Positions 11,653 to 35,037 of a stretch of 64,000 bases of DNA are shown piece after piece. Numbering within the stretch: the first letter of the stretch is position 1; each line of letters begins with the position of its first letter. The translations under genes and the position numbers were made by a program. The notes below the pieces were generated by a model. The model was given only the letters and a program-made list of their open reading frames with translations. It was not told the origin of the DNA and did not search any database. The stretch is from a virus, in IMG/VR virus record IMGVR_UViG_3300042691_042003, positions 62,001-126,000 of that record. The stretch is one strand, 5' to 3'.

Positions 11653-12441
11653 ATGGGACTTATTAAATCGTACGATGAATTTATTAATGAGAATTTGTAT
11701 GGACAATATTCATATTATGGTGCAGGTTCTCTTTATCCAATCGTTAGTAAATTAGCAACTGAAGGAAAAAATCCTCAACAAATTTATCTTTATCTTACTA
11801 CTTTAGGTATTGATGAAGAAAGAAAAAGAAAAGTTATTACTCAAGTTTTTTTAAATGAATCTATAGATTTCGATTCTATTCAAGAAAAGGGAGGACTTTA
11901 TGAGGATGATGTAGAAGATATTCTTAAGGCAGATACAAAAGATCTTGAAAAGGGTATTGAACCTTCAAAAGCTAAATCTGAAAAAGATGAAGAAATAAAG
12001 AAAATTTTAGATACTTCTAAGTCTGATGAAGATGATGAAGAGAAAGAAGAAGAGAATGTAGAAAAGGATAAAGAAGACGTTTCTACGAAAGTTTCTGCTA
12101 TACAATCAGTTCTTAAAGATGCTCAAAAATTAGAAAAAATTAAGAAAATCCTTTCTGAATCTATGGGATTCGATATAGATGGAGTTGATGATGAAGTTTT
12201 AATGAATATTTTTAATTATCATAAAGTTATTGAAGCTCTTACTCCAGCAGAAAAAGATAAATTAAAACCTTCTGATTTTATATTTCCTGATAAAAGATCT
12301 TGGCCAATCCATGATGAAAAGCATGCTAAAACTGCTTTAGTTTGGGCTACTTGGCCTCAATATAAAAATATAAAAAATGAGGTAGTTTCTGCAGTTATTA
12401 AAAGATATCCACAACTAAAAGGAATAGGAGCTTCTAAATAA
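11653..12441 (+). CDS. Head-targeted internal protein candidate, 262 aa
   Basis: The protein begins MGLIKSYDEFINE followed by N, the first of a series of N-terminal tags that resemble the T4 internal-protein capsid-targeting sequence. Cleavage by the gp21-like protease would be expected after Glu13. The body has a helical domain (residues 20-75), a strongly acidic Lys/Glu/Asp linker (about 85-150), and a C-terminal domain ending PDKRSWPIHDEKHAKTALVWATWPQY... with conserved-looking Trp residues. That C-terminal part resembles small DUF-type domains in phage structural proteins (SFPDKRSYPIHD-like), a guess from memory. It follows a late-type promoter. Confidence 0.7.
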   Translation: MGLIKSYDEFINENLYGQYSYYGAGSLYPIVSKLATEGKNPQQIYLYLTTLGIDEERKRKVITQVFLNESIDFDSIQEKGGLYEDDVEDILKADTKDLEKGIEPSKAKSEKDEEIKKILDTSKSDEDDEEKEEENVEKDKEDVSTKVSAIQSVLKDAQKLEKIKKILSESMGFDIDGVDDEVLMNIFNYHKVIEALTPAEKDKLKPSDFIFPDKRSWPIHDEKHAKTALVWATWPQYKNIKNEVVSAVIKRYPQLKGIGASK

Positions 12442-14860: not shown

Positions 14861-15778
14861 ATGAAAAATATTTTAACATTTGAAAACTTTATTAATGAAT
14901 CTTCGGATTTTAATGGCTTCGATAAAGACGACAATGATTTAATTTATGAATTAAATTACATGTATAATTTATTTGGATCCGGAAGGGATAACAGAAAAAC
15001 CAGGACATATGAATCTAATTTATTGTCTATTTATGAGTACTTTATGGAAAGTAACGAAGAATTTAGTCAATCTATCCTTGATAATTTACTTTTTGAAGCA
15101 GATGAAGAGAAAGAATTAAAAAAAGATATGCAAGCTAGAGATGAATTGGAAATGGGAGATAAATCACTTCCTATGAAAGTAGCTAGACTTATAACATGGA
15201 TTCCCCCTTTTACTCCAGTTAGAATAGGTTATGAACTTCTTAAAATTGTTGATAAAAAAGAAAAGATTAAGAAGCTTTTGAAAAATGTTCCTGAAGGTCC
15301 AAAAAAAGAAAAATTAAGAGCAGAATTAAATAATCTAAAACATAGTCAAGTTAATGCAGTTGCTCAATTAAAGAAAGCTAGAGTAACTAAAGAAGTAGGA
15401 ATTAGATATTCAAAACCTGATCAAGTTGTTCGTCAAGAAGTTAAACAAGTAAAGGATTCTTACAATTATGAAAACGACGAGGATATTCTAGAAAATATTT
15501 ATTTTGAAGGTCTTTCTAAGATTGTTAATATACTTGAAGCAAAAGGAAAAATTAGTGCTGAACAGAAAGAGAAAATTATGAAGCAAGCTGAATCTAAAGG
15601 TAAGGCCGAAGGAAAATCTTTAGCTTCAAAAGCTCAAAGTATTGCAAAGAAAATTTCTCAAAACCCTGATAAAAAGGCTGAAGCTTTAGACTCTTTAAAA
15701 CAAAAAGCAGAATCTGAAAAGGAAGCTTGGAAGAAATTAAAGCAAAAAGCAGAAGAAAAAGGAATTACTTTAGGATAA
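14861..15778 (+). CDS. Tagged internal protein candidate, 305 aa
   Basis: Begins MKNILTFENFINE followed by S. The tag would be removed after Glu13. The remainder is highly charged and mostly helical. A hydrophobic stretch near residues 105-128 (KVARLITWIPPFTPVRIGYE) might contact membrane. Long Lys/Ala/Glu-rich coiled-coil segments (about 125-180 and 225-300) follow. Additional possible protease sites occur (for example FLESNEE and LLFE). No enzyme motif is seen. Its stop overlaps the next ATG. Confidence 0.65.
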   Translation: MKNILTFENFINESSDFNGFDKDDNDLIYELNYMYNLFGSGRDNRKTRTYESNLLSIYEYFMESNEEFSQSILDNLLFEADEEKELKKDMQARDELEMGDKSLPMKVARLITWIPPFTPVRIGYELLKIVDKKEKIKKLLKNVPEGPKKEKLRAELNNLKHSQVNAVAQLKKARVTKEVGIRYSKPDQVVRQEVKQVKDSYNYENDEDILENIYFEGLSKIVNILEAKGKISAEQKEKIMKQAESKGKAEGKSLASKAQSIAKKISQNPDKKAEALDSLKQKAESEKEAWKKLKQKAEEKGITLG

Positions 15779-16593
15779 TGAAGAATTTGAAAACATACGA
15801 AGAATTTTTAAATGAATCGATTCCTTCTTACTCTTTTGATGGAAATCAAATTGAAGTGGGATCTTCGGTTCAGTCTTTGGATGGATTTTCAGGCATTATA
15901 ATTTCAAAAGAAATTTCTAACGGTAAAGTTTCTTTTAGAGATAATAAAGGAATTATTCACATCTGTGAATCAAAAGATCTTATTATCGATGATTTAAATG
16001 AGGGATTAAAATGGTGGGATATAGCTAAAGGTATTGTTGCTTCAGATGCTATTAAAACCGGACCTAATTTTAAGAACGGAAGTATTCTTTCTACTTTAAT
16101 TTCTTTAGCATGGAGAGATAAAATTACAAATAAAATTGAATCTATAAGAAATAAGCCAGGTTATGATGAAATGAAAGATGTTGCTTTTACTCTAGCTGAT
16201 AAATTAAGTAACGATCCTAGAATGTATGGGTTAGTTAACAAATTAGCTAGTCATCCTAGAATAACTACAATTTTTACTCCTTCTCAAAAAGAAAAAATAA
16301 AAGCTGCTAAAGTTAATTTAGAAAGACAACAAATTATTAAAGATATTTCTAGTTATATCAATGATTCTTTAACTCCTGAAGAAAAGAAATTTTTTGATGA
16401 TATAAATAATTTAATTAAAATAAAAAACCCAGAATCCGAAGAAATAGAAGAAGATGTTACAACCGATCCTAACAGAACAGTCGGAACCGGAACATACACA
16501 ACTACACATTCGGATCCAAATGTTTTAACTAAAGGATATTCTAATACTACCGATTCTGGATCTAATGGAAGCTATCCGGTTTATATAGGCTAA
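15778..16593 (+). CDS. Tagged internal protein candidate, 271 aa
   Basis: The start at 15778 (TAATG overlap) gives MKNLKTYEEFLNE followed by S; an in-frame extension upstream is possible but would bury the tag, so it is rejected. After the tag comes an SH3/KOW-like beta stretch (IEVGSSVQSLDGFSGIIISK). A helical middle with GLKWWDIAKGIVASDAIKTG follows, then a Thr/Ser/Gly-rich low-complexity end. Function unknown; probably packaged with the DNA. Confidence 0.65.
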   Translation: MKNLKTYEEFLNESIPSYSFDGNQIEVGSSVQSLDGFSGIIISKEISNGKVSFRDNKGIIHICESKDLIIDDLNEGLKWWDIAKGIVASDAIKTGPNFKNGSILSTLISLAWRDKITNKIESIRNKPGYDEMKDVAFTLADKLSNDPRMYGLVNKLASHPRITTIFTPSQKEKIKAAKVNLERQQIIKDISSYINDSLTPEEKKFFDDINNLIKIKNPESEEIEEDVTTDPNRTVGTGTYTTTHSDPNVLTKGYSNTTDSGSNGSYPVYIG

Positions 16594-16619: not shown

Positions 16620-17015
16620 ATGAAAAATTTACTCTCTTTTGAAGAATACATTAATGAAAATTACATCCAAGAAGCCACAGATGCTGATGGGTTTGATCCT
16701 GCTAAAGGAAATGTAACAGATCCTGAAAAAGGTGATATTAAAGCAACTACTGGGAAAAATAATGACCCTGGATTTACTTCGGATCAAGCTCCTGATAAAA
16801 TTGCAAGTCCTGTTTCTACTATTTCTGATATGAAACCAGGTAAAGAATATGTTCTTACCGTAGATGGTAAAAAACATACTGATATGCTTTATCAAGGTGT
16901 TACTGATGGAGTTCATATTTTTAACGGAGAAGATAAGGCTCATGATATCACTTTTACCGATTCTGATTTATCCTCTGTTATCTCTAAAGGTGGTGTAGTA
17001 GAAGTTGCCGAATAA
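16620..17015 (+). CDS. Tagged internal protein candidate, 131 aa
   Basis: Begins MKNLLSFEEYINE followed by N, with a second possible cut a few residues later (IQE before A). A Pro/Lys/Asp-rich linker leads to a C-terminal beta domain of about 65 residues. That domain shares KPGKEYVL, YQGVTDGVHIFN and SVISKG with the end of the 519-aa protein at 12470, so the domain has been copied or exchanged. Function unknown. Confidence 0.65.
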   Translation: MKNLLSFEEYINENYIQEATDADGFDPAKGNVTDPEKGDIKATTGKNNDPGFTSDQAPDKIASPVSTISDMKPGKEYVLTVDGKKHTDMLYQGVTDGVHIFNGEDKAHDITFTDSDLSSVISKGGVVEVAE

Positions 17016-18297: not shown

Positions 18298-19911
18298 ATG
18301 GCCGGTTTTGTAAATCGAGACGAAACTTCACAAGGAGCACCGACTCCTGCTGCAAGAAATTTAGTCAGTAAAGCATTAAAATCTCTTTCATCATTTGGAA
18401 TGATGTATGATGATATGGTGCTTAAAAATTCTAAAGCTATTGGTATTAATGAAGATCGATATGGTTGGAGGATGGATCCTCGAAATGTTGCAGGAGGAGA
18501 ATATGACGATTATGCACTTTTTGCTAATCTTTCAATGACTGATATCAATCTTAGAAAATCGATTTCTATTTTTGATAAATCATATCCAAAGAAAAGAGAA
18601 GATTTAAGAAAATTCGCTATCCAAGATGAAATTGAAGAAATTCTAGATACCCTTTGTGATGAAGCAATTGTTTATGACGATAAAAATTATTTTTGTTTCC
18701 CTCTCGCTTTTGATGATGAAACTCTTGAACCTGGAACTCTTGAAGCAATAAAAATTGCTCTTGATACTAATTTTAAAAGAATTTATCAGTATTTTGGATT
18801 TAATAATGATATAGCTGGATGGTCTTATTTCCGTAAATGGTTAGTTGATGGTTATCTTGCTTTTGAAATTATCTACAATAAAGATCAAACAAGAATTATT
18901 GGATTTAAAGAACTTGATCCTATTTATCTTGAGCCGGGTCTCGATAAAGAAGGAAAGAAAATTTGGAAACAATTTAAAGGTCAACCTAACAAAGAAAGAC
19001 TTATTTATGATTCACAAGTAATTTATATTTCATATGCAAACGTAAATACTGTTAATCGAGTTTCTTATGTTGAAAGATTAATTCGTTCTTTTAACCTTTT
19101 AAGGATTATGGAACATTCTAGAGTTATTTGGGCAACTGTTAACTCTTCATTTAAGACTAAATTTGTTATTCCAGTTGGAGGAAAATCAAAAACTCGAGCT
19201 AAACAATCTCTTGGAGTTCTTATGCAGAATTACAGAGAACAAATTGATTTTGATACTGATTCAGGAGAACTAAAAGTTAATGGTAAACCAATGATGCCTT
19301 TCAATAAAGAATATTGGTTACCTTCCGGTGAAGCTGGAGAACCAACTATTGAAACAATCGGCAATGATGGACCTGATCTTTCAGATACTGAAGCTCTTAA
19401 ATATTTTAGAGAGAAGCTGATTAAGGTTTCTAAAATCCCCCTTTCAAGATTTGATATGGAATCTCCTCCTTCTTGGGAAATGAATGCTGAAGGGATGACT
19501 AGAGATGAAATTAAATTTGGTCGTTTTATTACTCGTCTTCGTTCTGTATTCCAAGAAATTCTAGTAAAACCTCTTTGGATTCAAATGTGTTTAGATTTCC
19601 CTGAATTGAAAGATGATGATGCGTTTAAAGCACAAATTGGAGTAAAATATCATAAATATAATATTTTTGAAGAAATGAAAGAAATTGAAATTCTTCAAAA
19701 AAGATTAGATTTTGTAACTTCAATGAAAGATGGCCTAGTTGAAACCGATGCAAATATGAATGAAATTAAATATTTTGCTTCTGAATTCTTAATACAAAGA
19801 TTCTTAGGTCTTACTCCGGATGATCTAAGAGTTAATAGAAAACTTAAAGAAATTGAAGATCGAGAAAAGATAGAATTAGCTAAAAAATCAGCTGAAGCTA
19901 CTGGAATATAA
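18298..19911 (+). CDS. 20: Portal vertex protein (gp20)
   Basis: 537 aa (T4 gp20 is 524). Forms the dodecameric ring through which DNA enters and leaves the head and on which head assembly starts. Recognisable segments include YDDYALFANLSMTDINLRKS near the N-terminus and ILDTLCDEAIVYDD. In the C-terminal half, MESPPSWEMNAEGMTRDEIK and FGRFITRLRSVFQEILVKPL match T4 portal motifs of the type EMTRDEIKFTKFI. It is followed by the protease gene, as in T4. Confidence 0.93.
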   Translation: MAGFVNRDETSQGAPTPAARNLVSKALKSLSSFGMMYDDMVLKNSKAIGINEDRYGWRMDPRNVAGGEYDDYALFANLSMTDINLRKSISIFDKSYPKKREDLRKFAIQDEIEEILDTLCDEAIVYDDKNYFCFPLAFDDETLEPGTLEAIKIALDTNFKRIYQYFGFNNDIAGWSYFRKWLVDGYLAFEIIYNKDQTRIIGFKELDPIYLEPGLDKEGKKIWKQFKGQPNKERLIYDSQVIYISYANVNTVNRVSYVERLIRSFNLLRIMEHSRVIWATVNSSFKTKFVIPVGGKSKTRAKQSLGVLMQNYREQIDFDTDSGELKVNGKPMMPFNKEYWLPSGEAGEPTIETIGNDGPDLSDTEALKYFREKLIKVSKIPLSRFDMESPPSWEMNAEGMTRDEIKFGRFITRLRSVFQEILVKPLWIQMCLDFPELKDDDAFKAQIGVKYHKYNIFEEMKEIEILQKRLDFVTSMKDGLVETDANMNEIKYFASEFLIQRFLGLTPDDLRVNRKLKEIEDREKIELAKKSAEATGI

Positions 19912-19956: not shown

Positions 19957-21801
19957 ATGAGCAATTATTTACTTGTACTAGAAAGATCTGAAGGTAATCT
20001 TGCAGTTTCGAAAGAAGGCGATAAGTATGTCCTAGAAGGAATTTTTACTGAAATCGGAGTAAAGAATAAAAATAATAGAATTTACGACGAAAAAGAATTA
20101 CTTCCACATATTGAAGAGCTACAAACAAAATTAAAAGGAAATAAACTTCTTGGAGAACTAGATCATCCTAAATCTTTTGATATTTCTCTTAGAAATGCAT
20201 CACATGTAATAGAAGATATTAGCTATGATAAAGGGTCTAAGAAAGTTACTGGTAGAATTCGTTTACTTAATACGGATGCCGGTAAACAAGCTATGGCTCT
20301 TGTTGACGCTGGAGTTCCTCTTCATATTTCTAGTAGAGCTGCTGGTGTTGTTGAAGGTAATGGTCATGTAAAAATTAAGAAAATGTTTACTTATGATTTA
20401 GTTGCAGATCCTGGATTTGCTAACGCTGAATTAAAAAGAGTAAACGAATCTTTTGGATTTTCTGATGACGATTTAATTCAAATATTTGAAATTCCTAGCA
20501 CAATAGACGAATCATTTGTTGATGATAAATATACAAAACAAACAAAAAAAGAAGAAATGGATTCTAATCAATACATCAAGGTTGAGGATTTCAATGAATA
20601 TACCAAGCATTTAAAAGAAGAAATCGACGGATTGAAAAAATCTTTAACCGAATCTAAAAATTCAAACGATTCTGAAATCAATGAAGGTTTAGTTCGTTAT
20701 GCTGAAGAAACAGCAAAGAGAGTAAATCAAATCCAAGAATATGTTGGAAAACTTGCCGAATCGGTTGATGGTCTTATTTCACATAACGATTATATCGTTG
20801 AAAATCTAGAAAAAGTTAAAGATTATGCTGAAATGGTTGGAGAAAGATCTAATCAAGGTATTAATTATGCTGAGAAGCTTGCTGAATCGGTAGATCATCT
20901 TATCGAATATACCAAGATAATTGCTGAGAAAGCTGATCAAGGTATCGAATACACTAAGCATATTGCTGAAATGACAGATAATAATATCGAATACACAAAG
21001 CACGTTGCTTTAAAAGCTGATCAAGGTATCGAATACACTAAGTATATCGCTAATGAAAATTCTAATCGTTGGAATTATCAAACCTATATGAATGAGCAAC
21101 TTGATAATGTAATTTCTCATAACGATTATATCGTTGAAGGAACTTCTTCTATTATTGAATATACTGAATATCTCAAAGAACAAACCGAAAATCTTGCTAA
21201 TTACATGAACCATGTGGTTGAAAAGATTAATGAAGGATTTGTTCCTAATTCTTTTGAACCTAAAGATGATTTTGAAAAAGAAATTTCTGAAAAAATCGGA
21301 TCTATTTTAGAATCAGTTAAAGAAGAGGTTTCTTTTGAAAAGAAAGATAATAATTTGAATTTCTTAAATTTCCTTTCTGAAAGTAAAAGAAATCAATTCC
21401 ATTCTCTTAACGATGATATGAAAGAAAGAGTTATTTCTACATTTGAATCTAATAAATATTATGGTTCTGCTGATGCAGAAAAGCTTTTCGAATCTATCTT
21501 TATTATTCAAGCCCCTGTAATGAATTGGCTATCTAATATGCCTTCTAAATACAGAGAAGCATGGAACGGACTTAATGAATCTCAGAAAAATGCAATCAAA
21601 GCTCAAGCTTCTGTTAGAAATCTTGATACTCAATACAAAATTGACGATTTCTGGTCTACAAGAGATTTAAGAACTGTTAAAGTTGAAACTCCTCTTACTG
21701 AATCTAATGAAACAGTAATTGAAGAATCCCCTAAATATGTAACTCCTTCTACATATATGCAAACAGTTGAAGACGAATTAAGAAGGAGATTTAAAAGATA
21801 A
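19957..21801 (+). CDS. 21: Prohead protease fused to scaffold core (gp21-gp22-like)
   Basis: Residues 1-165 form a gp21-type prohead protease with catalytic His70 (GELDHPKSF) and Ser125/126 (PLHISSRAAG). It would cut head proteins after L/I-x-E type sites during maturation. Residues 170-614 are a long, charged coiled coil. This includes five 14-residue repeats (302-371) of the type IEYTKxIAEKADQG, a pattern expected of a scaffold such as T4 gp22. In T4 these are separate genes. An internal site, LKRVNE before SFGF (about residue 164), would let the protease release itself from the scaffold. Several later sites (EINE/G, LTE/S) could dismantle the core. It lies between portal and capsid genes. 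Confidence 0.85.
   Translation: MSNYLLVLERSEGNLAVSKEGDKYVLEGIFTEIGVKNKNNRIYDEKELLPHIEELQTKLKGNKLLGELDHPKSFDISLRNASHVIEDISYDKGSKKVTGRIRLLNTDAGKQAMALVDAGVPLHISSRAAGVVEGNGHVKIKKMFTYDLVADPGFANAELKRVNESFGFSDDDLIQIFEIPSTIDESFVDDKYTKQTKKEEMDSNQYIKVEDFNEYTKHLKEEIDGLKKSLTESKNSNDSEINEGLVRYAEETAKRVNQIQEYVGKLAESVDGLISHNDYIVENLEKVKDYAEMVGERSNQGINYAEKLAESVDHLIEYTKIIAEKADQGIEYTKHIAEMTDNNIEYTKHVALKADQGIEYTKYIANENSNRWNYQTYMNEQLDNVISHNDYIVEGTSSIIEYTEYLKEQTENLANYMNHVVEKINEGFVPNSFEPKDDFEKEISEKIGSILESVKEEVSFEKKDNNLNFLNFLSESKRNQFHSLNDDMKERVISTFESNKYYGSADAEKLFESIFIIQAPVMNWLSNMPSKYREAWNGLNESQKNAIKAQASVRNLDTQYKIDDFWSTRDLRTVKVETPLTESNETVIEESPKYVTPSTYMQTVEDELRRRFKR
20860..21069 (+). repeat. Five 42-base tandem repeats in the scaffold region
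   Basis: Units start at 20860, 20902, 20944, 20986 and 21028, each encoding 14 residues that begin INYAEK, IEYTKI, IEYTKH, IEYTKH and IEYTKY. Fourteen residues is two heptads, as expected for a coiled-coil rod that can lengthen by duplication. Confidence 0.85.
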
Positions 21802-21894: not shown

Positions 21895-23529
21895 ATGTAT
21901 TTAATTAACGAACAAGAAGTTTTCGGTAAATGGGCTCCAATTATCGAATCAACTACCGGCATTCAGGATCGTTCTAAAGTTGAATGGATGTCTAAGTACT
22001 GTCATTATCATGAATTGTACGAAAATAATAACCTCGCTCAACTTGGTGCTGTAAATGGCATGGGAGCTACTCGTTTCCCTGGAGATCCAGGAACTCAAAG
22101 TCAGTTCTTCTCTCAAGAAACTGGTTCTGGTGATAAGGCTCACACTCTTCTTCCTCTTGCTATGCAAGTTGCAGCTCAGACTGTAGGTCTTGATCTAGTT
22201 CCTGTTGTACCTATGCCTGGTCCTATGGGTGTTCTTACCTATCTTGACTTCGTATATGGTGGTGGTAAAACTAATGGTACTGGTGCTAACATTCCTCTCC
22301 TTGTAAAAGTTGATGTAGGATCTACTGCTGCTCCTGGTGCTGCTGGAACTACTGGAGGTATTACTTATACTTATGTAGGACCTTCTCGTATTGACGGTAA
22401 TGCTATATTCCATATTACTGGTTCTCTTACTACTGGTACTATTCTTTCTAATATGTATGCTTCTGCTGGTTCTACTAACCTTAACAATGTTAAATATACT
22501 GGAGCTGTTACTAAGGTTGAATTAGTTAAAGCTCTCGAAGATCATATTACTGGTTTCTCTGGAGATTCTCTTCGTGCTGGAATTTATGCAGATACTGCTA
22601 ATAATGGTGTTAATGATCCTCTTTCTCGTTTTGATGGTGAAGGAACTCAAGATAACATCATGAACTTAAGCCTTTTCAACAAATCTGTTGAAGCTAAAAC
22701 TTTCCAAGTTGCTGCTGCTGTTACTCGTGAGCAAGTTCAGGATCTTAAGCAATTTGGAGTTGATGCTGTTTCTCAGGTTGAATCTGTTCTTATTAACGAA
22801 CTTACTCAATCTATCAACAAGAACATTCTTTCTAGAATCTTCGCTCTTGGTGAAAGAAACCACTCTCAAGTTATTTCTACTCAAGGTCTTAACTTCTTCT
22901 TGAACCTTGGTTCTATTCCTAGATTAGTATCTTATGCTTCTGTTACTAACGCTCCTTATACTGCTTTTGCTTCTTATCTTAGCAGCAATTACAGTAATTT
23001 AACAGGTGCTACAATGAACGCAACTGAAAATTCTTCTTCACCTGCTGAAAACCTTTCTACTCGTCAGCGTAAGATCATGTCTAAGATCCTTGCAATTGCT
23101 AACCTAATTGCTATCCGTGGTCGTCGTGGTCCTGCTACTTTCGTAGTAACTAACGGTCAAGTATGTTCTGCTCTTCAGGATGTAGCTGGTTTCGTACCTG
23201 CTCCTATGGCTAACACCATCAATCAGATGAGCGGTTCTCTTTACCCAATCGGTACCCTTGCTGGTCTTGCTATCTACAACGATCCTAACATGGCTTGGAA
23301 CGATACTCGTTTCTGTGTAGGTCGTAAAGGTGATGGTAATTCTCCAGGACTCGTATTTATGCCTTACTTGATGGCTGAATCTGTTCAGACTATCGCTGAA
23401 GGTACTATGGCTCCTAAGGTTGCTGTTAAGTCTCGTTATGCTCTCGTTGAAGCTGGTTTCCACCCACAAACCATGTATTTAACTTCCGGAGTTCATATCG
23501 ATTCTCTTATCGCTGGAGGTTTAGTATAA
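21895..23529 (+). CDS. 23: Major capsid protein (gp23)
   Basis: 544 aa (T4 gp23 is 521). Builds the prolate or isometric head shell. The N-terminus MYLINEQEVFGKWAPIIEST resembles the T4 gp23 start, whose first 65 residues are removed by gp21. A likely cut here is after LYE43. Later motifs include ITREQVQDLKQFG-like (VTREQVQDLKQFGVDAVSQV) and RGRRGPATFVVTNGQV, which match the T4 capsid fold. Codon use is more biased to C-ending codons in the second half, as expected for a very highly expressed gene. A strong terminator follows. Confidence 0.95.
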   Translation: MYLINEQEVFGKWAPIIESTTGIQDRSKVEWMSKYCHYHELYENNNLAQLGAVNGMGATRFPGDPGTQSQFFSQETGSGDKAHTLLPLAMQVAAQTVGLDLVPVVPMPGPMGVLTYLDFVYGGGKTNGTGANIPLLVKVDVGSTAAPGAAGTTGGITYTYVGPSRIDGNAIFHITGSLTTGTILSNMYASAGSTNLNNVKYTGAVTKVELVKALEDHITGFSGDSLRAGIYADTANNGVNDPLSRFDGEGTQDNIMNLSLFNKSVEAKTFQVAAAVTREQVQDLKQFGVDAVSQVESVLINELTQSINKNILSRIFALGERNHSQVISTQGLNFFLNLGSIPRLVSYASVTNAPYTAFASYLSSNYSNLTGATMNATENSSSPAENLSTRQRKIMSKILAIANLIAIRGRRGPATFVVTNGQVCSALQDVAGFVPAPMANTINQMSGSLYPIGTLAGLAIYNDPNMAWNDTRFCVGRKGDGNSPGLVFMPYLMAESVQTIAEGTMAPKVAVKSRYALVEAGFHPQTMYLTSGVHIDSLIAGGLV

Positions 23530-25285: not shown

Positions 25286-25766
25286 AATTCGTAGACAAAA
25301 TGCAGGCAAAACACCTACAAAATACGGAATAGTTACAAAAGGTCTAAAACCTAGATATAAAAAAGTTCTTAATGAAAATCCGGTTATTAAGAAATATTCG
25401 GATGATGATAGGTTCATACAGGCCATCTTCAGGATTGAAGATGAGAAGATAAGATTATCCCATTTACAAAGGCCGTTTGTTCACCCTGTGTCAAAAGAGA
25501 TATACACGTTTGAATGTATTAAAGACTCTTATAAAATATTTAATTGGGAATGTGCTTATTGTAAAATTCCAATACAATCGAGAATAGATAGATTTAGTCC
25601 TGATAATTTTACATGTGAAAAATGCTATAAGTACTATATTAAAGATTCTAAAAAAATAAATCAAAGAATTATTGAGTCTTCACTTTCTTTTACCGAAAAA
25701 TGTAAGAGGATGATGATAGATAATCAGAAATCATTCTTAAAATATCTAAAGAAAAATGAAAAATAG
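25278..25766 (+). CDS. Small zinc-ribbon-like protein, 162 aa
   Basis: Basic protein with a four-Cys cluster: C92 and C95 (CAYC), then C113 and C116 (CEKC). This spacing fits a zinc ribbon. A further Cys occurs at 80. The basic N-terminal region (GLKPRYKKVLNENPVIKKYS) could contact nucleic acid. It overlaps the preceding gene by 8 bases and the RimK-like gene by 11 bases. Base composition in 25400-25510 is a little less AT-rich than its surroundings. A late-transcription co-activator or a structural zinc protein are both possible; unproven. Confidence 0.6.
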   Translation: MVEIRRQNAGKTPTKYGIVTKGLKPRYKKVLNENPVIKKYSDDDRFIQAIFRIEDEKIRLSHLQRPFVHPVSKEIYTFECIKDSYKIFNWECAYCKIPIQSRIDRFSPDNFTCEKCYKYYIKDSKKINQRIIESSLSFTEKCKRMMIDNQKSFLKYLKKNEK

Positions 25767-27231
25767 GTTCGATTATTTTGATCAATTTGTTTTAAATGAA
25801 GCTAAGAAAAATAAAACCCCTAAGATTAAGGTTCTTATGCTCTCAAATATTAGTGAAGAATCTTATACTGTTCCTGCAGTTGAAGCCGAATGTAAAAAGA
25901 GGGGGATAGTTTTCCGTATTATCGATATTAACACTTGCTCTTTAATTAAAGATAAGAAAGGAGACGGTTATATTATAAATGATAAAACTAAGGTTCCTTT
26001 TAAAATAGATTCTGAAGACACAGCTATACTTACTAGAAGAGGAGTCGTTAGAAGTACTATGACGAGAGATCTTATTTCTCAATTAGAGGATGCCAATTTC
26101 TTTGTTGTTAATACTCTTGAATCTATTCTTGCTTGTGAGAATAAATTTGTCACTTCAAAAATTCTTATGAATGCTGGAATTCCAGTTCCTAAAATGGCAA
26201 TTGTTGATGGTGAAGAATCTATCGATTCAGCTCTAAAAGAAATAGGTGGTCAATTTCCTATAGTTCTTAAAATGCTTTCAGGATCTCATGGTATTGGAGT
26301 TTCTATTATTGAATCTCTCGCTTCTCTTAAATCGGTTTTACAAACTATGTGGAAAATCGATCCAAATATCGAAACTCTTATTCAAGAAAAAATTGATTCT
26401 GATTACGATCTAAGAATCCACGTTCTTACTAAAAGATTTAATTCTCCTTCTCCGGATGAAACCGATTCAGTTCTCCTTGGTTATATGAGACGTAATAGAG
26501 TTAAAAAAGATTTCAGAACTAATTATTCTCTTGGAGGAACGGTTGAAAAAACTAAGGTTACTCCTGAACAAGAAAAAATTGCGATTGAGGCTGCTAAAGC
26601 TGTAGGTTGTAATTGGTGCGGTGTTGATCTGATCGTTGATAAGAAAACGAAGAAAAATTATGTTCTTGAAGTTAATTCTTCTCCAGGAACACAAGGTTTG
26701 AAAAAAGCTACAGGAGTCGACGTAGTAAAAGATATAGTTGATTTTCTTTCGGATAAAAAGAATTGGATTAGATCTCGTAGAGTTATAGGTTTTAGAGAGG
26801 TAATAACAATTCCAGAAATAGGTGATGTTATTGCTAAATTTGATACTGGTAACGGAGCTATGTCTTGCTCATTAACTTACGATACTGCAGAATTAATTGA
26901 TGGAGATAAATTTATCGAATGGGAATTAGGAGGTAAAAAATTCAAAAGTAAAGTAGTAGGATTTTCTACTGCTGAAGTCGGTCCTAAAACACACGAAAGG
27001 CCTACTATTCTTATGGACATATCTTTTGCAGGTAAAACTTATAAAGATGTTGAAGTTTCTCTAGTAGACCGTAAAGAAAAATCTACTAAATTCTTAGTAA
27101 ATAGAAAATTCATGGAAAGAATAGGATGTTCTGTTTCTCCTTATAAAACATTTATGATTACTTCTTTTGATGGAGAATATTCAGCAAGAGATGCAAAAGG
27201 AGATCCACATGCAGGAATAAAATTTATATAA
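25756..27231 (+). CDS. Tagged RimK-like ATP-grasp ligase fused to a retropepsin-like (PF05618-type) domain
   Basis: Begins MKNRFDYFDQFVLNE before AKKNK, a head-targeting tag with a cut after Glu15. Residues 23-340 match RimK: the ATP-grasp loop VLKMLSGSHGIGVS (about 171), EKIDSDYDLRIHVL, KKDFRTNYSLGGTVEK, GVDLIVDKKTKKNYVLEV and NSSPG (metal-binding Glu and Asn, about 303-311). RimK enzymes add glutamate residues to protein C-termini, classically ribosomal protein S6. Residues 345-491 resemble the RimK-associated retropepsin-like domain (so-called ATP-dependent zinc protease). They carry FDTGNGAMSC with candidate catalytic Asp363, then ERPTILMDISFAGKTYKDVE and FLVNRKFMERIGCSV. A packaged, injected protein-modifying enzyme is inferred, analogous to the T4 Alt strategy but with different chemistry. 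Confidence 0.85.
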   Translation: MKNRFDYFDQFVLNEAKKNKTPKIKVLMLSNISEESYTVPAVEAECKKRGIVFRIIDINTCSLIKDKKGDGYIINDKTKVPFKIDSEDTAILTRRGVVRSTMTRDLISQLEDANFFVVNTLESILACENKFVTSKILMNAGIPVPKMAIVDGEESIDSALKEIGGQFPIVLKMLSGSHGIGVSIIESLASLKSVLQTMWKIDPNIETLIQEKIDSDYDLRIHVLTKRFNSPSPDETDSVLLGYMRRNRVKKDFRTNYSLGGTVEKTKVTPEQEKIAIEAAKAVGCNWCGVDLIVDKKTKKNYVLEVNSSPGTQGLKKATGVDVVKDIVDFLSDKKNWIRSRRVIGFREVITIPEIGDVIAKFDTGNGAMSCSLTYDTAELIDGDKFIEWELGGKKFKSKVVGFSTAEVGPKTHERPTILMDISFAGKTYKDVEVSLVDRKEKSTKFLVNRKFMERIGCSVSPYKTFMITSFDGEYSARDAKGDPHAGIKFI

Positions 27232-28989: not shown

Positions 28990-29943
28990 ATGAATCCTAA
29001 AAAAGCACTTTGGACTGAAAGATATCGTCCTACTGATCTTGATGAACTTATAGTTCCTCAACGAGTTTACAATAAACTAAAAAATGGTGTTTATCAGAAT
29101 CTACTTCTTTATGGTGGTCCTGGTTCAGGTAAAACTTCTTCGGCTAAAATTCTAGCTAAAGATCATCCATCAATGTATATCAATTGTTCTTCTGAAACCG
29201 GTGTTGATACGGTAAGAACTAAAATTACAGAATTTTGTTCTTCTCTTTCTGTTATCGATGGTGAACGTAAACTTAAAGTTGTAATTCTTGATGAATTTGA
29301 TGGTGTTTCCGATGCTTATATGAAAGCACTACGTGGAACTATCGAACAATTTGAAAAAACTGCTCGTTTCGTAGCTACATGTAATTATTTTAATAAGATT
29401 CCAGATAATATTCAATCTCGTTTCGAATGTATTAATTTCGATTTCACTGAAGAAGAAGAAAAAGAAATCGAAGTAAAATACTTCAAACGAATCTATGAAA
29501 TCGTTAAAAACGAAGGAATGGAAATCGAAAAAGATGCTCTCGTTGAATTAGTTCGACGTAAATTTCCTGATCTTCGTTCTACAATTAATGTTCTTCAAGG
29601 ATACTTTGCCGAAGGAAAACTGAAAATTACTTCTGAAGATGTTAAAAAATTCCATGGTGTCTTTAAAGATCTTTATGAACATATTTTTAATCCTTCAAAC
29701 GACGAAGTAAAGAATTATCAATATCTCGTTTCAAATTATTCTTCTAAAGTCGAAGATGTTATTCAATCTTTAGGAACTGATTTTATCGAATATATTCAAA
29801 TGGAAAGACCTCAGCTTATGCGTAAAGTAGGTGAAATCTGTTACGAAGTAAACAAACATTCATTCGAATTACGTTTTGTAGTTGATCCTGTGATTACTAT
29901 GCTGTCTCTCGTTTATCGAATTCAAACAATCATCAGAAGCTAA
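28990..29943 (+). CDS. 44: Clamp loader large subunit (gp44, AAA+)
   Basis: 317 aa (T4 gp44 is 319). Loads the sliding clamp at primer ends. The N-terminus WTERYRPTDLDELIVP, Walker A GGPGSGKT (42-49), VVILDEFDGVSDAYMKALRG (Walker B) and FVATCNYFNKIPDNIQSRFE (sensor 1 and arginine finger) are all canonical for this AAA+ family. In T4 this gene lies beside the clamp gene; here it is about 26 kb away. Confidence 0.93.
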   Translation: MNPKKALWTERYRPTDLDELIVPQRVYNKLKNGVYQNLLLYGGPGSGKTSSAKILAKDHPSMYINCSSETGVDTVRTKITEFCSSLSVIDGERKLKVVILDEFDGVSDAYMKALRGTIEQFEKTARFVATCNYFNKIPDNIQSRFECINFDFTEEEEKEIEVKYFKRIYEIVKNEGMEIEKDALVELVRRKFPDLRSTINVLQGYFAEGKLKITSEDVKKFHGVFKDLYEHIFNPSNDEVKNYQYLVSNYSSKVEDVIQSLGTDFIEYIQMERPQLMRKVGEICYEVNKHSFELRFVVDPVITMLSLVYRIQTIIRS

Positions 29944-29952
29944 GTTATCGAA

Positions 29953-29968
29953 GATAAATAATAAAAAA
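29953..29968 (+). promoter_or_regulatory. Late-type promoter before the tagged-gene array
   Basis: GATAAATAATAAAAAA, 24 bases before the first gene of the tandem array. It has one base different from GATATATAA. Confidence 0.5.
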
Positions 29969-29976
29969 GTTTTCGC

Positions 29977-30231
29977 ATGAAAAATTTCCCTTCTTATGAA
30001 GAATTCTTAAATGAAGGAAATTGGTCTCAAATGATGAAAGGTGTAAGAACTGGTTCGGTCCCTTACACTATTGTTGCTATCGATAGAGTAGCTAAAAAAG
30101 TCGTAGGCCAAGAAATCGTTAGTATTCGTGATGCAGTTCCTGCTTATTACGAAGATATGAAACGTAGATTCTCTAAGTTTCATTTACATATTGAAGATTC
30201 TACTGGAAAGGTAGTTTGGTCAGAAAAATAA
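29977..30231 (+). CDS. Tagged internal protein candidate, 84 aa (array gene 1)
   Basis: Begins MKNFPSYEEFLNE before GNWS. The mature protein would be about 71 residues with a beta-alpha-beta look (VPYTIVAIDRVAKKVVGQEI; RRFSKFHLHIEDSTGKVVW). It opens a run of eight consecutive genes whose first 13 codons are related. Small and basic, it would fit the role of an injected internal protein. Function unknown. Confidence 0.7.
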   Translation: MKNFPSYEEFLNEGNWSQMMKGVRTGSVPYTIVAIDRVAKKVVGQEIVSIRDAVPAYYEDMKRRFSKFHLHIEDSTGKVVWSEK

Positions 30232-30239
30232 AATCAGAA

Positions 30240-30617
30240 ATGAACACACATATTAAATCATTTAATGAATTCCTTAATGAAAGTGTAAATGATCCTGTTC
30301 TCGTTGCTTTACGTGCTGCTAAAGAAGATCGTAAAAAGATGATGATGGATAAGAAAGAAAGAATGAAAAGGCGAGTTTACGGTGCAAAACGTGAACAAAT
30401 GGAAGCTGAGCTAGATAAAATCTGGCAAGAAATTAAGGATAATAAGCAGCAACAATCTGATCTTTGGAGAGAAATGGAAGCCGAGGCCGGTGATAAGAGC
30501 CCAAACTTTTCAGATGCAGATGGCAACCGTTATGGTCAAAAATTCAACGATCTTGATGATGAATTAGAAAAGCTTTATCGTCGTCGTTCTGAATTAGAAA
30601 CAAAATTAGCATATTAA
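30240..30617 (+). CDS. Tagged coiled-coil protein, 125 aa (array gene 2)
   Basis: The ATG at 30240 gives MNTHIKSFNEFLNE before SVND; an upstream in-frame TTG is ignored because it would bury the tag. The rest is a nearly continuous helix with basic clusters (KEDRKKMMMDKKERMKRR) and a Gln/Glu-rich second half. DNA binding inside the head is conceivable given the basic part. Confidence 0.7.
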   Translation: MNTHIKSFNEFLNESVNDPVLVALRAAKEDRKKMMMDKKERMKRRVYGAKREQMEAELDKIWQEIKDNKQQQSDLWREMEAEAGDKSPNFSDADGNRYGQKFNDLDDELEKLYRRRSELETKLAY

Positions 30618-30618
30618 G

Positions 30619-30870
30619 ATGAATCATATTCCTTCATTTGAAGAATTTTTAAACGAAAGTTCTCATTATAAAATTGACGATTTCCAAGTTGGAGATGTTA
30701 TTCACTTTAAAGATGGTGAAGCTTGGAAAGTTGTTAAAGTTAATAATATAAGAGATTTAATCTCAGTATTTCCTCATAATAAGTTAGCAAAAGATAAAAA
30801 CGTTAGCATAACGATAGAATTAAGACTTAAATATCTTAATGATAACGTAACAAAAATTGAAAAGTCTTAA
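30619..30870 (+). CDS. Tagged SH3/KOW-like protein, 83 aa (array gene 3)
   Basis: Begins MNHIPSFEEFLNE before SSHY. The following segment VGDVIHFKDGEAWKVVKVNN has the look of a small SH3-like or KOW barrel, comparable to the 57-residue protein at 51689. Starts two bases after the previous stop. Confidence 0.7.
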   Translation: MNHIPSFEEFLNESSHYKIDDFQVGDVIHFKDGEAWKVVKVNNIRDLISVFPHNKLAKDKNVSITIELRLKYLNDNVTKIEKS

Positions 30871-30871
30871 T

Positions 30872-31699
30872 ATGAAAAATATCCCTTCTTTTGAAGAATT
30901 CGTAAACGAAAGTTTGAACGAATCTCTTAGCTTAACTCTTAGGGATGTTCCTAAAATCGTTAAGGATTTCGTTTCGAGGACTAAATATATCAAAAATCTT
31001 AAAGAAAAAGATTGGTTAACTGCATCGGAAATTATCATAGTAACTGATAAAGATTTTGATATAAAAGGTAAATCAACAACTGGCAATTATATGTTGCTAG
31101 GACTTTATAAAACTTATGGACCTGTTTATAAAGTTGAATGGGCATCCGTAAGACCTGATATGAAATATCCTGCTAATGCTGGAATCTATAATAAAGAGAT
31201 TGATAAAGCCACATGGGAAAAACTAAAAAATGCCCATGAAAGAAAAATGATCGATCCAAAAAGTCTTACGGCTAATGATATTAAAAACACAGGAGATCTT
31301 TTAGGTAAATTCATAACCGATGAAATTAATACATCTTCGGTTCCTGTTAAAGGTCAATTTGATCCAACAAATTCAGGATCAATTAAAATGGAAATTGAAA
31401 GTGCTTATAAAGATTCAGAAGTTAGTATCGTTAGAGGAGATAATGTAAGAGTAGATTTCTACTTTAAACGTGCTGGTGATGGCCGTAATGTTGCTAAAAC
31501 TAATCTATTCTTTATCATAGATCCTTCTCAACAATCGGTAGAATTTAAAAATCCTGATGTTAGTGGTCTTAGTAGAGCAAACTACAGAAATATGAGAGAT
31601 ATTTCAGCATTCTTTAAGAGTTCTATTCAAGCTTGGAAGGATGAAGATAAGAGAAGATCAGATGCTATGCAACAAACAGCATTTAGTCAAGATAGATAA
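30872..31699 (+). CDS. Tagged internal protein candidate, 275 aa (array gene 4)
   Basis: The start chosen at 30872 (one base after the previous stop) gives MKNIPSFEEFVNE before SLNES, so two cuts six or so residues apart are possible (VNE and LNE). The mature part is alpha/beta with NYMLLGLYKTYGPVYKVEWA and a second domain from about 165 (VRVDFYFKRAGDGRNVAKTN). No enzyme motif is recognised. It is among the largest members of the array. Confidence 0.7.
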   Translation: MKNIPSFEEFVNESLNESLSLTLRDVPKIVKDFVSRTKYIKNLKEKDWLTASEIIIVTDKDFDIKGKSTTGNYMLLGLYKTYGPVYKVEWASVRPDMKYPANAGIYNKEIDKATWEKLKNAHERKMIDPKSLTANDIKNTGDLLGKFITDEINTSSVPVKGQFDPTNSGSIKMEIESAYKDSEVSIVRGDNVRVDFYFKRAGDGRNVAKTNLFFIIDPSQQSVEFKNPDVSGLSRANYRNMRDISAFFKSSIQAWKDEDKRRSDAMQQTAFSQDR

Positions 31700-31714
31700 A
31701 AAAATAAAACAATA

Positions 31715-32014
31715 ATGAATAATCATATTCCATCATTTGATGAATTTTTAAATGAAAGTTCTCTTCAAGGAACTCCTAAATTTCTTCCAGGTAAAGCTGC
31801 TATTGCTTATGGTGATGAAGAAGGTAAAATCGTAGCTGCTGAATTTGCTAAAGATTGGAAGAAACTTAAGAAATACGACGAAACCGGTTGGTTAGATCCT
31901 ACTGAAATGAAAAACATGGGAATCGAACCTACAGATATTCTCGTAGCCTTCAAAGATTCTGAAGGAGGAATTAATGTATACACTTACGGTGAAGGAGGTG
32001 TAGAGCTAAAATAA
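31715..32014 (+). CDS. Tagged internal protein candidate, 99 aa (array gene 5)
   Basis: Begins MNNHIPSFDEFLNE before SSLQ. Acidic body with KFLPGKAAIAYGDEEGKIVA and a C-terminal beta segment (DILVAFKDSEGGINVYTYGE). Function unknown. Confidence 0.7.
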   Translation: MNNHIPSFDEFLNESSLQGTPKFLPGKAAIAYGDEEGKIVAAEFAKDWKKLKKYDETGWLDPTEMKNMGIEPTDILVAFKDSEGGINVYTYGEGGVELK

Positions 32015-32025
32015 AAAATTAAAAA

Positions 32026-32583
32026 GTGAAACATATACAATCGTTCGACGAATTCATTAATGAATCAGAAGATCAGAATCTTCCTCTTAATGAAAATAAT
32101 TTAGTTTATATTAAAGATAAGAAATTTAAATCTTCACAAGATATTATGAATTTCTTTCAGAAAAATGCAGGTTCCGCTTTTGAAAAATTTATTTCTGATA
32201 AAATGGGAGTGAAAGCTAAAGCTGTAACTGGAGTTTCCAGAAGAGGTGATGCTGTTAATATTTCTACACAACCAATTTCTAAAAAAGATTTAGGAATTTT
32301 TGGATTTGTTTTTAGTGAAGTATCTATCGATTCTTTTGGTGGAGGTATAATTGAACATCAAATGGTAAATAATATGCAATTTGAATTTTGTCCTGCTATC
32401 TTCTTTAGATTACATGTTAGTTATAAACATATAGGAGGTGGTTCTAACGGTGCCGATATTGTACTTCCTAGTAATGATCCTTACAATACTCTTATTATGT
32501 ACGATATCGTAGAAAATCGTTTTCTAGATCAGGCCGAAGCTAAAGCTTCTAAAACTAAATATTGGGTCGAAGGATCTTGGTAA
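32026..32583 (+). CDS. Tagged internal protein candidate, 185 aa (array gene 6)
   Basis: Starts at a GTG: the tag reads MKHIQSFDEFINE before SEDQ. The body is beta-rich (DAVNISTQPISKKDLGIFGF; FEFCPAIFFRLHVSYKHIGG) and ends TKYWVEGSW. The GTG start is supported by the conserved tag, which begins exactly at this codon. Function unknown. Confidence 0.7.
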   Translation: MKHIQSFDEFINESEDQNLPLNENNLVYIKDKKFKSSQDIMNFFQKNAGSAFEKFISDKMGVKAKAVTGVSRRGDAVNISTQPISKKDLGIFGFVFSEVSIDSFGGGIIEHQMVNNMQFEFCPAIFFRLHVSYKHIGGGSNGADIVLPSNDPYNTLIMYDIVENRFLDQAEAKASKTKYWVEGSW

Positions 32584-32599
32584 AAATAAAATTTAAATA

Positions 32600-33427
32600 G
32601 TGAAACATATAAAATCATTTGACGAATTTTTAAACGAAGGTCTTAACGAGGCTAATATCTCATTCTATAAAAATGTAGTTCAGCAAGCTATTAAAGATGC
32701 TTTAGGGCATGATGTAAAACAATCTGATGTTAAAGTAGGAGCAAAAAAGCAAAGTGGAGGATATGATTTGATTACTCTTAATGGAAAACTTCTTTGCTCT
32801 TCTTCTCAACACGATGAAATGCTTCGTTCTGCAACTAATGCAATTAAAGAAGATCCTGCTAAGTATGGTTTGAAAGAATCTGCAATGAACGAAGCAATGA
32901 CTTTCGATGATGCTGTAAAGCAATTTACTGCAAATCCTTATGGAATTGGTGCTAGTCGAGTTCATGTTGTAGGAGATGAAGAACATCATGTTAAAGGTCA
33001 TAGAATTCTTAAATTCTTTCATTCAACTGCTTTCGATAGAGATAAAACTATGGCTAAACTAAAAACTCTAGGTTTTAGCGCAAAGAACATGACAAAGAAC
33101 ATGACCGATAAAGGATATATGTTCAGATATTATATAAGCCTTTTTGAAGGAGCAGTAAATGAAGATTCTATTGATGAAGCTGCTAAATGGCCTCTAACCG
33201 ATAAAATTGACAGTAAAACTTTTTATGATATGTGGGCTTCTTTAGATGTTGCTACTCAAAATCTCAGTGATTATATGGATGAAGCAAATAAAGGAAAAGA
33301 AAGTGATGCTCTATTCTCTTTGAAAGTTGCTTATGATGAGCTAACTGATTTAATGAAAAGTAAGACAATCGAAAAGCAGCTAAAAGCTATTGCAGAAGAG
33401 CTAAAAGATAAAAATGCACTTAAATAA
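32600..33427 (+). CDS. Tagged multi-site protein, 275 aa (array gene 7)
   Basis: GTG start giving MKHIKSFDEFLNE before GLNEA. Several additional x-N-E sites occur: GLNE/A (17), AMNE/A (near 97) and AVNE/D (near 183). They would divide it into three roughly equal globular pieces, so it may be a polyprotein. Pieces: residues 18-97 (small alpha/beta domain), 98-183 (basic, FDRDKTMAKLKTLGFSAKNM) and 184-275 (helical). Function unknown. Confidence 0.65.
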   Translation: MKHIKSFDEFLNEGLNEANISFYKNVVQQAIKDALGHDVKQSDVKVGAKKQSGGYDLITLNGKLLCSSSQHDEMLRSATNAIKEDPAKYGLKESAMNEAMTFDDAVKQFTANPYGIGASRVHVVGDEEHHVKGHRILKFFHSTAFDRDKTMAKLKTLGFSAKNMTKNMTDKGYMFRYYISLFEGAVNEDSIDEAAKWPLTDKIDSKTFYDMWASLDVATQNLSDYMDEANKGKESDALFSLKVAYDELTDLMKSKTIEKQLKAIAEELKDKNALK

Positions 33428-33429
33428 TT

Positions 33430-33669
33430 ATGAAGAATATTCCCTCTTTCGAAGAATTCTTAAATGAAGCTGCAAGAGTCGATACATTTCCTTACAAAGC
33501 TTCACATTCTAAAGATCCTAAAGGTTTTGGACTTTGGTATTTTAGTTTCAGTAAAGATGGTTCCGATTCCTTTTCCCCTGAAAAATCTATGAGTTACGGA
33601 GATGCTTTGAAATGGGCACAAGCTCAAGCAAAAGAAAAGAAACAATCTGTTATTTATGTAATGGGATAA
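33430..33669 (+). CDS. Tagged internal protein candidate, 79 aa (array gene 8)
   Basis: Begins MKNIPSFEEFLNE before AARV, identical in the tag to genes 3-4 of the array over most positions. The mature part includes FGLWYFSFSKDGSDSFSPEK and SYGDALKWAQAQAKEKKQSV. Last gene before the terminator at 33699. Confidence 0.7.
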   Translation: MKNIPSFEEFLNEAARVDTFPYKASHSKDPKGFGLWYFSFSKDGSDSFSPEKSMSYGDALKWAQAQAKEKKQSVIYVMG

Positions 33670-33683
33670 AAAAATTTAAAATT

Positions 33684-33738
33684 GTTAATAATTTTTTGGC
33701 TCGGCATTTTTTTATGTCGAGCTTTTTTATTATATTTG
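33684..33738 (+). promoter_or_regulatory. Early-type promoter (GTTAATAA ... TATATTTG)
   Basis: GTTAATAA at 33684-33691 and TATATTTG at 33731-33738 (47 bases start to start), enclosing a terminator hairpin. The next gene (RNase H) starts 45 bases after the box. Confidence 0.75.
33699..33728 (+). terminator. Terminator inside the early-type promoter
   Basis: GCTCGGCAT / ATGTCGAGC stem (one G-T pair) with a six-T loop, then six T residues that run into the TATATTTG box. Same architecture as at 1401-1430. Confidence 0.9.
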
Positions 33739-33783: not shown

Positions 33784-35037
33784 ATGACTGGTAAGTACAC
33801 ATTAATCTTCGACGGTAACTTTTGGTTACACAAAACCTATTTTATAGGTCAAAAAATCAAGCAAGGCAAACCCTTCAATTTCATCGACGAACCGGATCAA
33901 GATAAAAATCTTCTTCTTTGGAAACTCTCTGTCGACTTCGCTGCTGAAATCAAACGCTTCGAAGGAATCACTAATCGAATTGTTTATACAGTCGATTCTT
34001 CTTCTTGGCGAAAAACATTTCATCCTGAATCCGAATATAAAGCTAATCGAGTAAAATCTTCGGAAATCAATTGGTCTCTTATTTACGATGTCCATAACGA
34101 ATTTATCCAATCTCTTGAAAAGATGGGCATCATTATTTCTCGTGTTCGAAATGCCGAAGCCGACGATCTTATCTTTGCTTGGTCTTCTCATCTAAATCAA
34201 CAAGGACAAAATGCACTTATTATCTCAGGTGATAACGATCTTCTACAACTCGTAAATCACGATAAATCTTCAGGTGCAAACACTCTTTATTACAATAAAT
34301 TCGATAAAGATCTACACGTTTTCTCGGGTTTTCAAAATTGGCTCGATATCGAAGAAATCACTAACGATATCTTCAATCTTCCCGTCGATCTCGTTTCTAA
34401 TACAAAAACTCATCTTCGTCAAATTATTAAAACCAATAAAATGAAAATCGACGAAGTCAATACAAACGAATTTATTTTTAAGAAAATTCTTCTAGGTGAT
34501 TCAGGCGATAACGTTTCTCCTCTTCATGTTACTATTAAAGAAACAAAATCAGGTCCTAAACGATTTGCCGTAACAGAAAATCATTCTAATCTAATTCTTA
34601 ATGAATTTAAAACCGATAAGGTTTTCGTAAATCAATCTCATCTATTCAACGAAGAATACATCAATCAAATCTGCGAAATTGCTAAGCGAGTAATTAAAAT
34701 CGAAAAGCCTATCGAAGAAATTCGTACTAAATGGGAACTTAATCGTAATCTTGTCTTTCTTCATAAAAAATGTATTCCTGAATCAGTTCTTACTTCAATG
34801 TTCGAACAAATCGAAGGATGTAATTTAACTCATTTTTCTGCTCTTGAATTACATAATCTTATGAATAAGGACGAAATTCTTAAAGGAACCACTTACGTAA
34901 AAGAAAAAGTCGATTCTTTTAATGAATCAGGAATTTTTAAATCTTCTATGAAGAAAGAATCTCCAATTGAAAATGTAAAAATAGTCGAAAAACAAAGTGG
35001 ATTCGATGATTCATTTTGGAAAGACCTCTTAAAATAA
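33784..35037 (+). CDS. rnh: RNase H / 5'-3' exonuclease (flap endonuclease family)
   Basis: 417 aa (T4 Rnh is 305). Removes RNA primers from lagging-strand fragments. Metal-binding features: D10 (LIFDGNFWLHK), EADDLIFAWSSHL, LIISGDNDLLQLV and ILLGDSGDNVSPL, the last being the H3TH entry. An extension of about 100 residues relative to T4 is mainly C-terminal. Expressed from the early-type promoter upstream; its codons favour ATC, GAC and CGA more than those of the structural genes. Confidence 0.9.
   Translation: MTGKYTLIFDGNFWLHKTYFIGQKIKQGKPFNFIDEPDQDKNLLLWKLSVDFAAEIKRFEGITNRIVYTVDSSSWRKTFHPESEYKANRVKSSEINWSLIYDVHNEFIQSLEKMGIIISRVRNAEADDLIFAWSSHLNQQGQNALIISGDNDLLQLVNHDKSSGANTLYYNKFDKDLHVFSGFQNWLDIEEITNDIFNLPVDLVSNTKTHLRQIIKTNKMKIDEVNTNEFIFKKILLGDSGDNVSPLHVTIKETKSGPKRFAVTENHSNLILNEFKTDKVFVNQSHLFNEEYINQICEIAKRVIKIEKPIEEIRTKWELNRNLVFLHKKCIPESVLTSMFEQIEGCNLTHFSALELHNLMNKDEILKGTTYVKEKVDSFNESGIFKSSMKKESPIENVKIVEKQSGFDDSFWKDLLK

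Follow-up and report, generated by a model that had tools for sequence, protein, structure and literature searches.

The window considered here is a stretch of 64,000 nucleotides (positions 62001-126000) of a 246,081-base IMG/VR viral record (IMGVR_UViG_3300042691_042003); coordinates are positions in this window unless they are called record positions. Between the gene of a gp44-type clamp loader (28990-29943, plus strand; PHROG 168, E 9e-68) and that of an RNase H-like 5'-3' exonuclease (33784-35037, plus strand; PF02739, E 3.5e-14), conserved left and right flanks with 79-86% and 66-75% identity in close relatives, eight consecutive open reading frames (ORFs) run on the plus strand from 29977 to 33669, with gaps of 8, 1, 1, 15, 11, 16 and 2 bases between them. 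Their products, A1 to A8 in order, share a tag made of the first 13-14 residues, M(K/N)x(I/F)(P/K/Q)S(F/Y)xEF(L/V/I)NE, after which a proteolytic cut is predicted (marked below by an arrow). A1 (29977-30231, 84 amino acids) begins with MKNFPSYEEFLNE↓G and has a mature module of 71 residues, while A2 (30240-30617, 125 amino acids, MNTHIKSFNEFLNE↓S) is charged and looks like a coiled coil. A3 (30619-30870) and A5 (31715-32014), of 83 and 99 amino acids, carry the tags MNHIPSFEEFLNE↓S and MNNHIPSFDEFLNE↓S. A4 (30872-31699, 275 amino acids) starts with MKNIPSFEEFVNE↓SLNE↓S; A6 (32026-32583, 185 amino acids, MKHIQSFDEFINE↓S) and A7 (32600-33427, 275 amino acids, MKHIKSFDEFLNE↓GLNE↓A) both have a GTG start codon, and A8 (33430-33669, 79 amino acids, MKNIPSFEEFLNE↓A) is the last. 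The comparison of A1-A8 with Pfam and PHROG gave no convincing match for any of them.

Similarity among the eight proteins is confined to the tag. Identity averages 0.78 over the tag and 0.08 over the following 60 residues; when the proteins are aligned on the cut, identity is 1.0 at columns -7, -4, -3, -1 and 0 and only 0.00-0.14 from +2, and no two mature parts were homologous when compared with each other. The initial annotation of this DNA had described eight tandem genes with related starts and unrelated remainders, with similarity ending right after the predicted cut, and these values bear out both statements. Concerning the nucleotide level, same-residue codon pairs within the eight tags are identical in 123 of 196 cases, and codon usage alone predicts 126.9. 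The tag is therefore conserved as a peptide while its synonymous sites are saturated, and it is old, not recently copied in this array. A tag matrix run over the 246-kb record found 32 ORFs scoring at least 8 and none among shuffled N-termini. A degenerate DNA version of the tag gave 18 matches in the record, all on one strand, and 21, 14 and 10 in three relatives, again on one strand, with no match in the reversed controls.

The tag was compared with the capsid targeting sequence (CTS) of phage T4 by means of a position matrix built from 121 non-redundant tags of the clade, T4 excluded, and run over all 458 ORFs of T4. The three best were ipIII (17.3), ipII (17.3) and gp61.1 (14.3), against a shuffled maximum of 2.2. 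Genetics of the T4 CTS has assigned residues 4 and 7 to targeting and residues 8 and 10 to processing (PMC9026906); these correspond to clade columns -6, -3, -2 and 0, where the 121 tags have F/Y (118), F/Y (118), L/V/I (120) and E (all 121), respectively. Judged by its sequence, the tag of the array is a T4-type CTS. The cognate head genes are coded in the same window: a gp20-type portal (18298-19911, plus strand; PF07230, E 8e-71), an S77 gp21-like prohead protease fused to a coiled, scaffold-like part (19957-21801, plus strand; PF03420, E 3.6e-12; PHROG 207, E 1.3e-39) that contains 14 [LI]xE↓[SAGN] sites, and a gp23-type major capsid protein (21895-23529, plus strand; PF07068, E 8.4e-36) whose propeptide is likely cut at residue 18 (WAPIIE↓STT). 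Protease and scaffold-like part are apparently a single ORF of 614 amino acids, unlike the separate gp21 and gp22 of T4.

Three further observations concern tags of this kind in other phages. T4 gp61.1 (NC_000866.4, 18966-19130, minus strand; locus L148) is a hypothetical protein of 54 amino acids with the N-terminus MKTFKEFIKED, and it may be an overlooked CTS protein. In Sphingomonas phage PAU, at least six ORFs (record positions 9332, 101031, 106051, 106521, 112994 and 113313) repeat an N-terminus MKTxxKLYExKLNE↓S/A, likely a lineage-specific capsid tag. Three ORFs of Chryseobacterium phage MA9V-1 (record positions 122538, 126205 and 176213) begin with MK(T/N)F..F(V/I)NE↓S/A, another variant of the tag.

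The array is one part of a much larger repertoire. The record has 24 clear and about 30 probable tagged genes, which form clusters near record positions 48-49, 56-57, 73-79, 92-95 and 240 kb, besides single genes. Across all loci examined, the 136 tagged proteins of the clade fall into 85 families of mature parts, 60 of them singletons, and rows of about 10 and 8 tagged genes occur in genomes G001 and G003 at loci other than the gp44-RNase H one. When 116 tagged proteins were compared with Pfam and PHROG, few matches were obtained. Among the tagged proteins of the clade there are a Dps-like protein, a RimK-like ligase, a glycosyltransferase and a cytidylyltransferase-like enzyme, types that would suit an action in the cell or on DNA. 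The window itself codes for a RimK-like ATP-grasp enzyme with the variant tag FDYFDQFVLNE↓A (25756-27231, plus strand; PF08443, E 3.4e-35), and the RimK-like proteins of two relatives were picked up by the tag pattern. The tagged Dps-like protein (PHROG 858, DUF5856) is found at L007 7000-7428 and at L012 9697-10125, the second copy lying inside the gp44-RNase H interval; it would be notable for a ferritin-like, DNA-binding protein to be packed together with phage DNA. The cytidylyltransferase-like enzyme (L007 4639-5217) has a weaker tag, MNNLLTYEDFLFE↓D, and could counter NAD-depleting defences if it makes NAD precursors. A Pfam NleE match of one tagged protein was dropped, being below the cut-off and with its frame broken in the genome search. 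We also looked for membership in the published bS21 phage clade and did not find it, five records having no bS21.

In relatives, the gp44 and exonuclease genes stay paired over a wide range of identity, and the interval between them goes from 54 to 7151 bp. It may be empty, or hold untagged genes (collagen-like and others) along with 0-2 tagged ones. With its variable gene content, the interval is a hotspot. It had been proposed at first that the cargo would vary here while the flanks and the tags stayed; the first part agrees with what we found, whereas the tags do not stay, and the tagged arrays of relatives sit at several other loci. The same eight genes in all relatives, which would have pointed to core structural genes, were not observed: none of the relatives' loci searched has the eight-gene array. 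Genes with collagen-like GPTG repeats occupy the same interval at L015 10978-11463, L034 10977-11576 and L018 10957-11478.

Homologues of individual cargo were found for three members of the array. The A1 module recurs in G001, in G002, in a sibling phage and at loci L159 and L149. It is a stand-alone gene here, and in G001 it forms residues 148-216 of a protein of 216 amino acids with a cut at 145; in L159 (5659-6585), from a distant T4-like phage, the A1 domain belongs to a protein of 308 amino acids coded just after the S77 protease and is flanked by GVKE↓ and ESVNE↓, and in L149 it lies near the terminase. A2 has a tagged homologue in G007 (49% identical), and A8 a tagged paralogue at record position 183655, the mature parts being 40% identical. 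Tagged homologues of A1, A2 and A8 at other loci or in other phages suggest that the genes travel together with their tags. For the other members, no homologue of A3 or A5 was present among the loci examined, none of A4 was found by tblastn of named phages or by the IMG/VR scan, and in that scan A6 matched elsewhere by its tag alone. The IMG/VR scans with A4, A6, A7 and the A8 pair recovered no relatives beyond the tag, a nucleotide search of the whole window in named phages gave no match, and a scan of bacterial genomes with the A1 family found none.

Internal cut sites were analysed in the tagged proteins. We counted [LIVM]NE↓[SAGN] sites beyond residue 40 in tagged proteins and in shuffled versions of the same proteins, and found 30 sites where 3.9 are expected, about an eightfold excess. 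We also looked for tagged proteins whose mature part is similar to a segment inside another tagged protein, with tags stripped from the queries so that a match could not be drawn to a cut site by the tag. All nine independent module starts fall at most 5 residues from LxE↓, where 1.28 are expected (P < 5e-6; never reached in 200,000 simulations); with the strict NE motif the figure is 7 of 9 (0.74 expected), and in an earlier form of the test it was 8 of 10 (1.11 expected). From this analysis it is evident that module starts lie at predicted cut sites.

Two sibling phages with 94-99% identical flanks offer a direct view of the exchange, since four nearby genes differ between them by whole modules: their products have 87 and 235, 201 and 119, 160 and 76, and 135 and 252 amino acids, with joints at VNE↓, LLE↓, VNE↓ and INE↓. 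One of these joints consists of a whole internal tag, NENFLYEEFINE↓AKD, which is what an in-frame fusion of two tandem tagged genes should give. In the array of G002 the tag DNA is repeated over 45-60 bp with 91-98% identity, and siblings swap modules right behind it; such near-identical DNA would serve recombination. Since modules are found in both formats, tandem tagged genes and polyproteins can be regarded as alternative forms of a single set of cargo. Of the apparent cargo polyproteins, the longest (L088 2435-3958, in G002) is tagged, has 507 amino acids and contains four (x)ESVNE↓ joints. In the array of the window, A7 is a candidate polyprotein of three modules, whose candidate internal cleavage sites follow 32893 (MNE↓A) and 33163 (VNE↓D); no homologue of its modules was detected, so that its split is a prediction.

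Considering all these data, we hold with good confidence that the array consists of genes for head-internal cargo of a T4-like phage, and that some of the cargo is made as polyproteins cut by the protease. The tag would take each protein into the prohead core, where the S77 protease would then cut after [LIV]NE, so that a mature protein unrelated to the others would be left free in the head beside the DNA. Many of these mature proteins would afterwards enter the cell by injection and work there at an early stage, host defences being the most likely target, as T4 Ip1-3 and Alt suggest by analogy. The cargo set would turn over at several hotspots, and the unit of exchange would be the module between two protease sites, either as a single tagged gene or in in-frame fusions that retain the cut site, and at times a whole internal tag, between modules. 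We lean slightly towards a more specific proposal, namely that the prohead protease, known for its part in assembly, also matures multi-module cargo polyproteins in the head and that recombination at cut-site or tag DNA swaps units between single genes, polyproteins and phages. Concerning the fate of the cargo, it is probably injected, as the T4 internal proteins are, and an anti-defence or effector role is plausible. Since the A1 domain also sits between cut sites in a head-region protein of a distant phage, some of the cargo may have its function in the head.

Some results weigh against this interpretation and have to be set beside it. The tblastn of A1, A2, A4, A6, A7 and A8 in named phages gave no match, and the 116 tagged proteins had none among the PADLOC defence-system models, a collection that does not bear on inhibitors; because of these two results, the anti-defence role is argued by analogy. 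The cut motif is short, and in untagged proteins LxE sites are also about twofold over shuffles (24 against 11.2). Module ends, on the 3' side, coincide with a site weakly, 3 of 7 being at most 5 residues from one where 0.97 are expected. A7 is the sole array member with candidate internal modules, and it has no homologues confirming the split. Moreover, the saturated synonymous sites of the tags speak against recent capture in this array. The comparison with an effector island made in the initial annotation is kept in part: tagged cargo does lie in a variable locus, and the effector role is plausible from the T4 analogy, whereas the lack of PADLOC matches and the occurrence of the A1 domain in a head-region protein count against it.

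Regarding alternatives, the array could be a capture cassette, with foreign coding sequences inserted time after time behind copied tag DNA, as had also been suggested at first. The G002 array of a relative, with its near-identical tag repeats and sibling module exchange behind them, behaves in this way, and the RimK-like enzymes found in two relatives by the tag pattern also fit. In the array of the window, however, the agreement of tag codons with codon usage is not what copied DNA would give, and cargo homologues in other phages either have their own tag or lie behind internal cut sites, so that genes mostly move with their tags or as modules; capture as the general explanation is possible, but we regard it as doubtful.

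It is unlikely, in our opinion, that the tagged proteins are instead parts of the prohead core or of head assembly, comparable to T4 gp67, gp68 and the scaffold, which would fill or shape a large head and be cut up or kept as inert fragments without delivery as effectors. Core proteins of T4 are indeed cut into fragments (PMC5694885), and four tagged genes lie in the head module of the window (11653-12441, 14861-15778, 15778-16593 and 16620-17015, all on the plus strand), the first, third and fourth being kept in relatives. The A1 domain, moreover, is found between cut sites in a protein coded next to the S77 protease of a distant T4-like phage, and in L149 it lies near the terminase. An assembly core, on the other hand, should not differ wholly in array content between relatives nor consist largely of singleton families, and the tagged enzymes and DNA-binding types described above do not fit it. 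Finally, a leader for localisation or of a secretion-like type with no link to the head, or a functionless remnant of duplication, might be imagined for so short a tag and is highly improbable, given the peptide conservation under free synonymous change, the residue-by-residue match with the T4 CTS, the presence in the same genome of a cognate protease and of a matching cut in gp23, and the absence after the tag of the similarity that a duplication would leave.

Taken as head-internal cargo, the array has its closest counterpart in T4. Ip1, Ip2, Ip3 and Alt likewise have an N-terminal tag of 10-20 residues, with matching key residues and an LxE cut by a gp21-type protease (PMC12373910, PMC3012670, PMC9026906), and the internal proteins (Ips) of T4 also have unrelated mature parts and lie in variable hotspots. 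Once injected, T4 Ip1-3 inhibit the GmrSD restriction enzymes, and they do not resemble one another beyond the leader (PMC12373910). The differences are of scale and of format: T4 has three Ips in two loci, while about 30 tagged genes are present per record here, with tandem rows of 8 or more, and, unlike the T4 Ips, the modules are also found within longer proteins that have internal cut sites. The array is a large-scale relative of the T4 internal-protein loci, and the unexpected part, seen in the relatives, is the module format. Our literature search, which covered mainly openly accessible papers, found no description of modules interchangeable between tandem genes and polyproteins.

Other systems resemble the array in some respects. 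In SPN3US and phiKZ-like giant phages, according to the accessible parts of the reports (PMC5694885, PMC10052503), head proteins are cut by the prohead protease at xxE and ejected into the host, as we propose here; the same parts describe long propeptides (often more than 100 residues) on few processed proteins, and neither a short tag common to dozens of unrelated genes nor an exchange of modules. Polyvalent proteins (Iyer et al. 2017; PMC5512222) unite in a single polypeptide several domains related to conflict, and their packaging and delivery are predicted, as for the cargo here; they differ in having recognisable enzyme domains and often their own metallopeptidase, whereas the modules here are short, carry a CTS-type tag and are predicted to be excised by the prohead protease. 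Anti-CRISPR and anti-defence hotspots likewise swap unrelated small genes between conserved phage genes, but the genes considered here share a head-targeting tag, from which delivery by the virion rather than early expression is expected.

The three injected internal proteins of T4 disarm restriction enzymes at the very start of infection. If this interpretation is true, the passengers of some large phages are more numerous by an order of magnitude, stand in rows and in protease-cut chains, and are shuffled at known boundaries. The tag and the cut rule would let candidate injected proteins, mostly of unknown fold and function, be listed from sequence alone, and they would supply natural tools by which a single gene could load a phage head with several proteins.

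Expression signals around the array were also considered, because a late-type promoter and a closing terminator had been predicted initially. The possible T4-type late promoter element GATAAATA does lie at 29953-29960 (plus strand), 24 nt ahead of A1, as a weak candidate. Sites of this type upstream of genes are modestly enriched, 17 against 6.8 in shuffles; the reversed control is enriched too (12 against 7.1), which leaves this promoter unproven. The -7 promoter motif of Bacteroidota showed no clear enrichment. A stem-loop with a T tail is present at 33698-33723 (plus strand), after the last stop codon, and is the sole one found there; shuffles average 1.7 stem-loops, and it is therefore by its position that it is a likely terminator.

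Structure models were obtained for two cargo proteins. That of A8 is weak (pLDDT 76), while the mature domain of A1 gives a confident small alpha-beta model (pLDDT 93.3). In the PDB, the fold search with this model returned a generic alpha-beta arrangement, the best score (Z 8.5) being to Rubisco small-subunit-like domains; kinship with them was not accepted. The best viral match of the A1 model is a protein of virus NIOZ-UU157 (TM 0.85).

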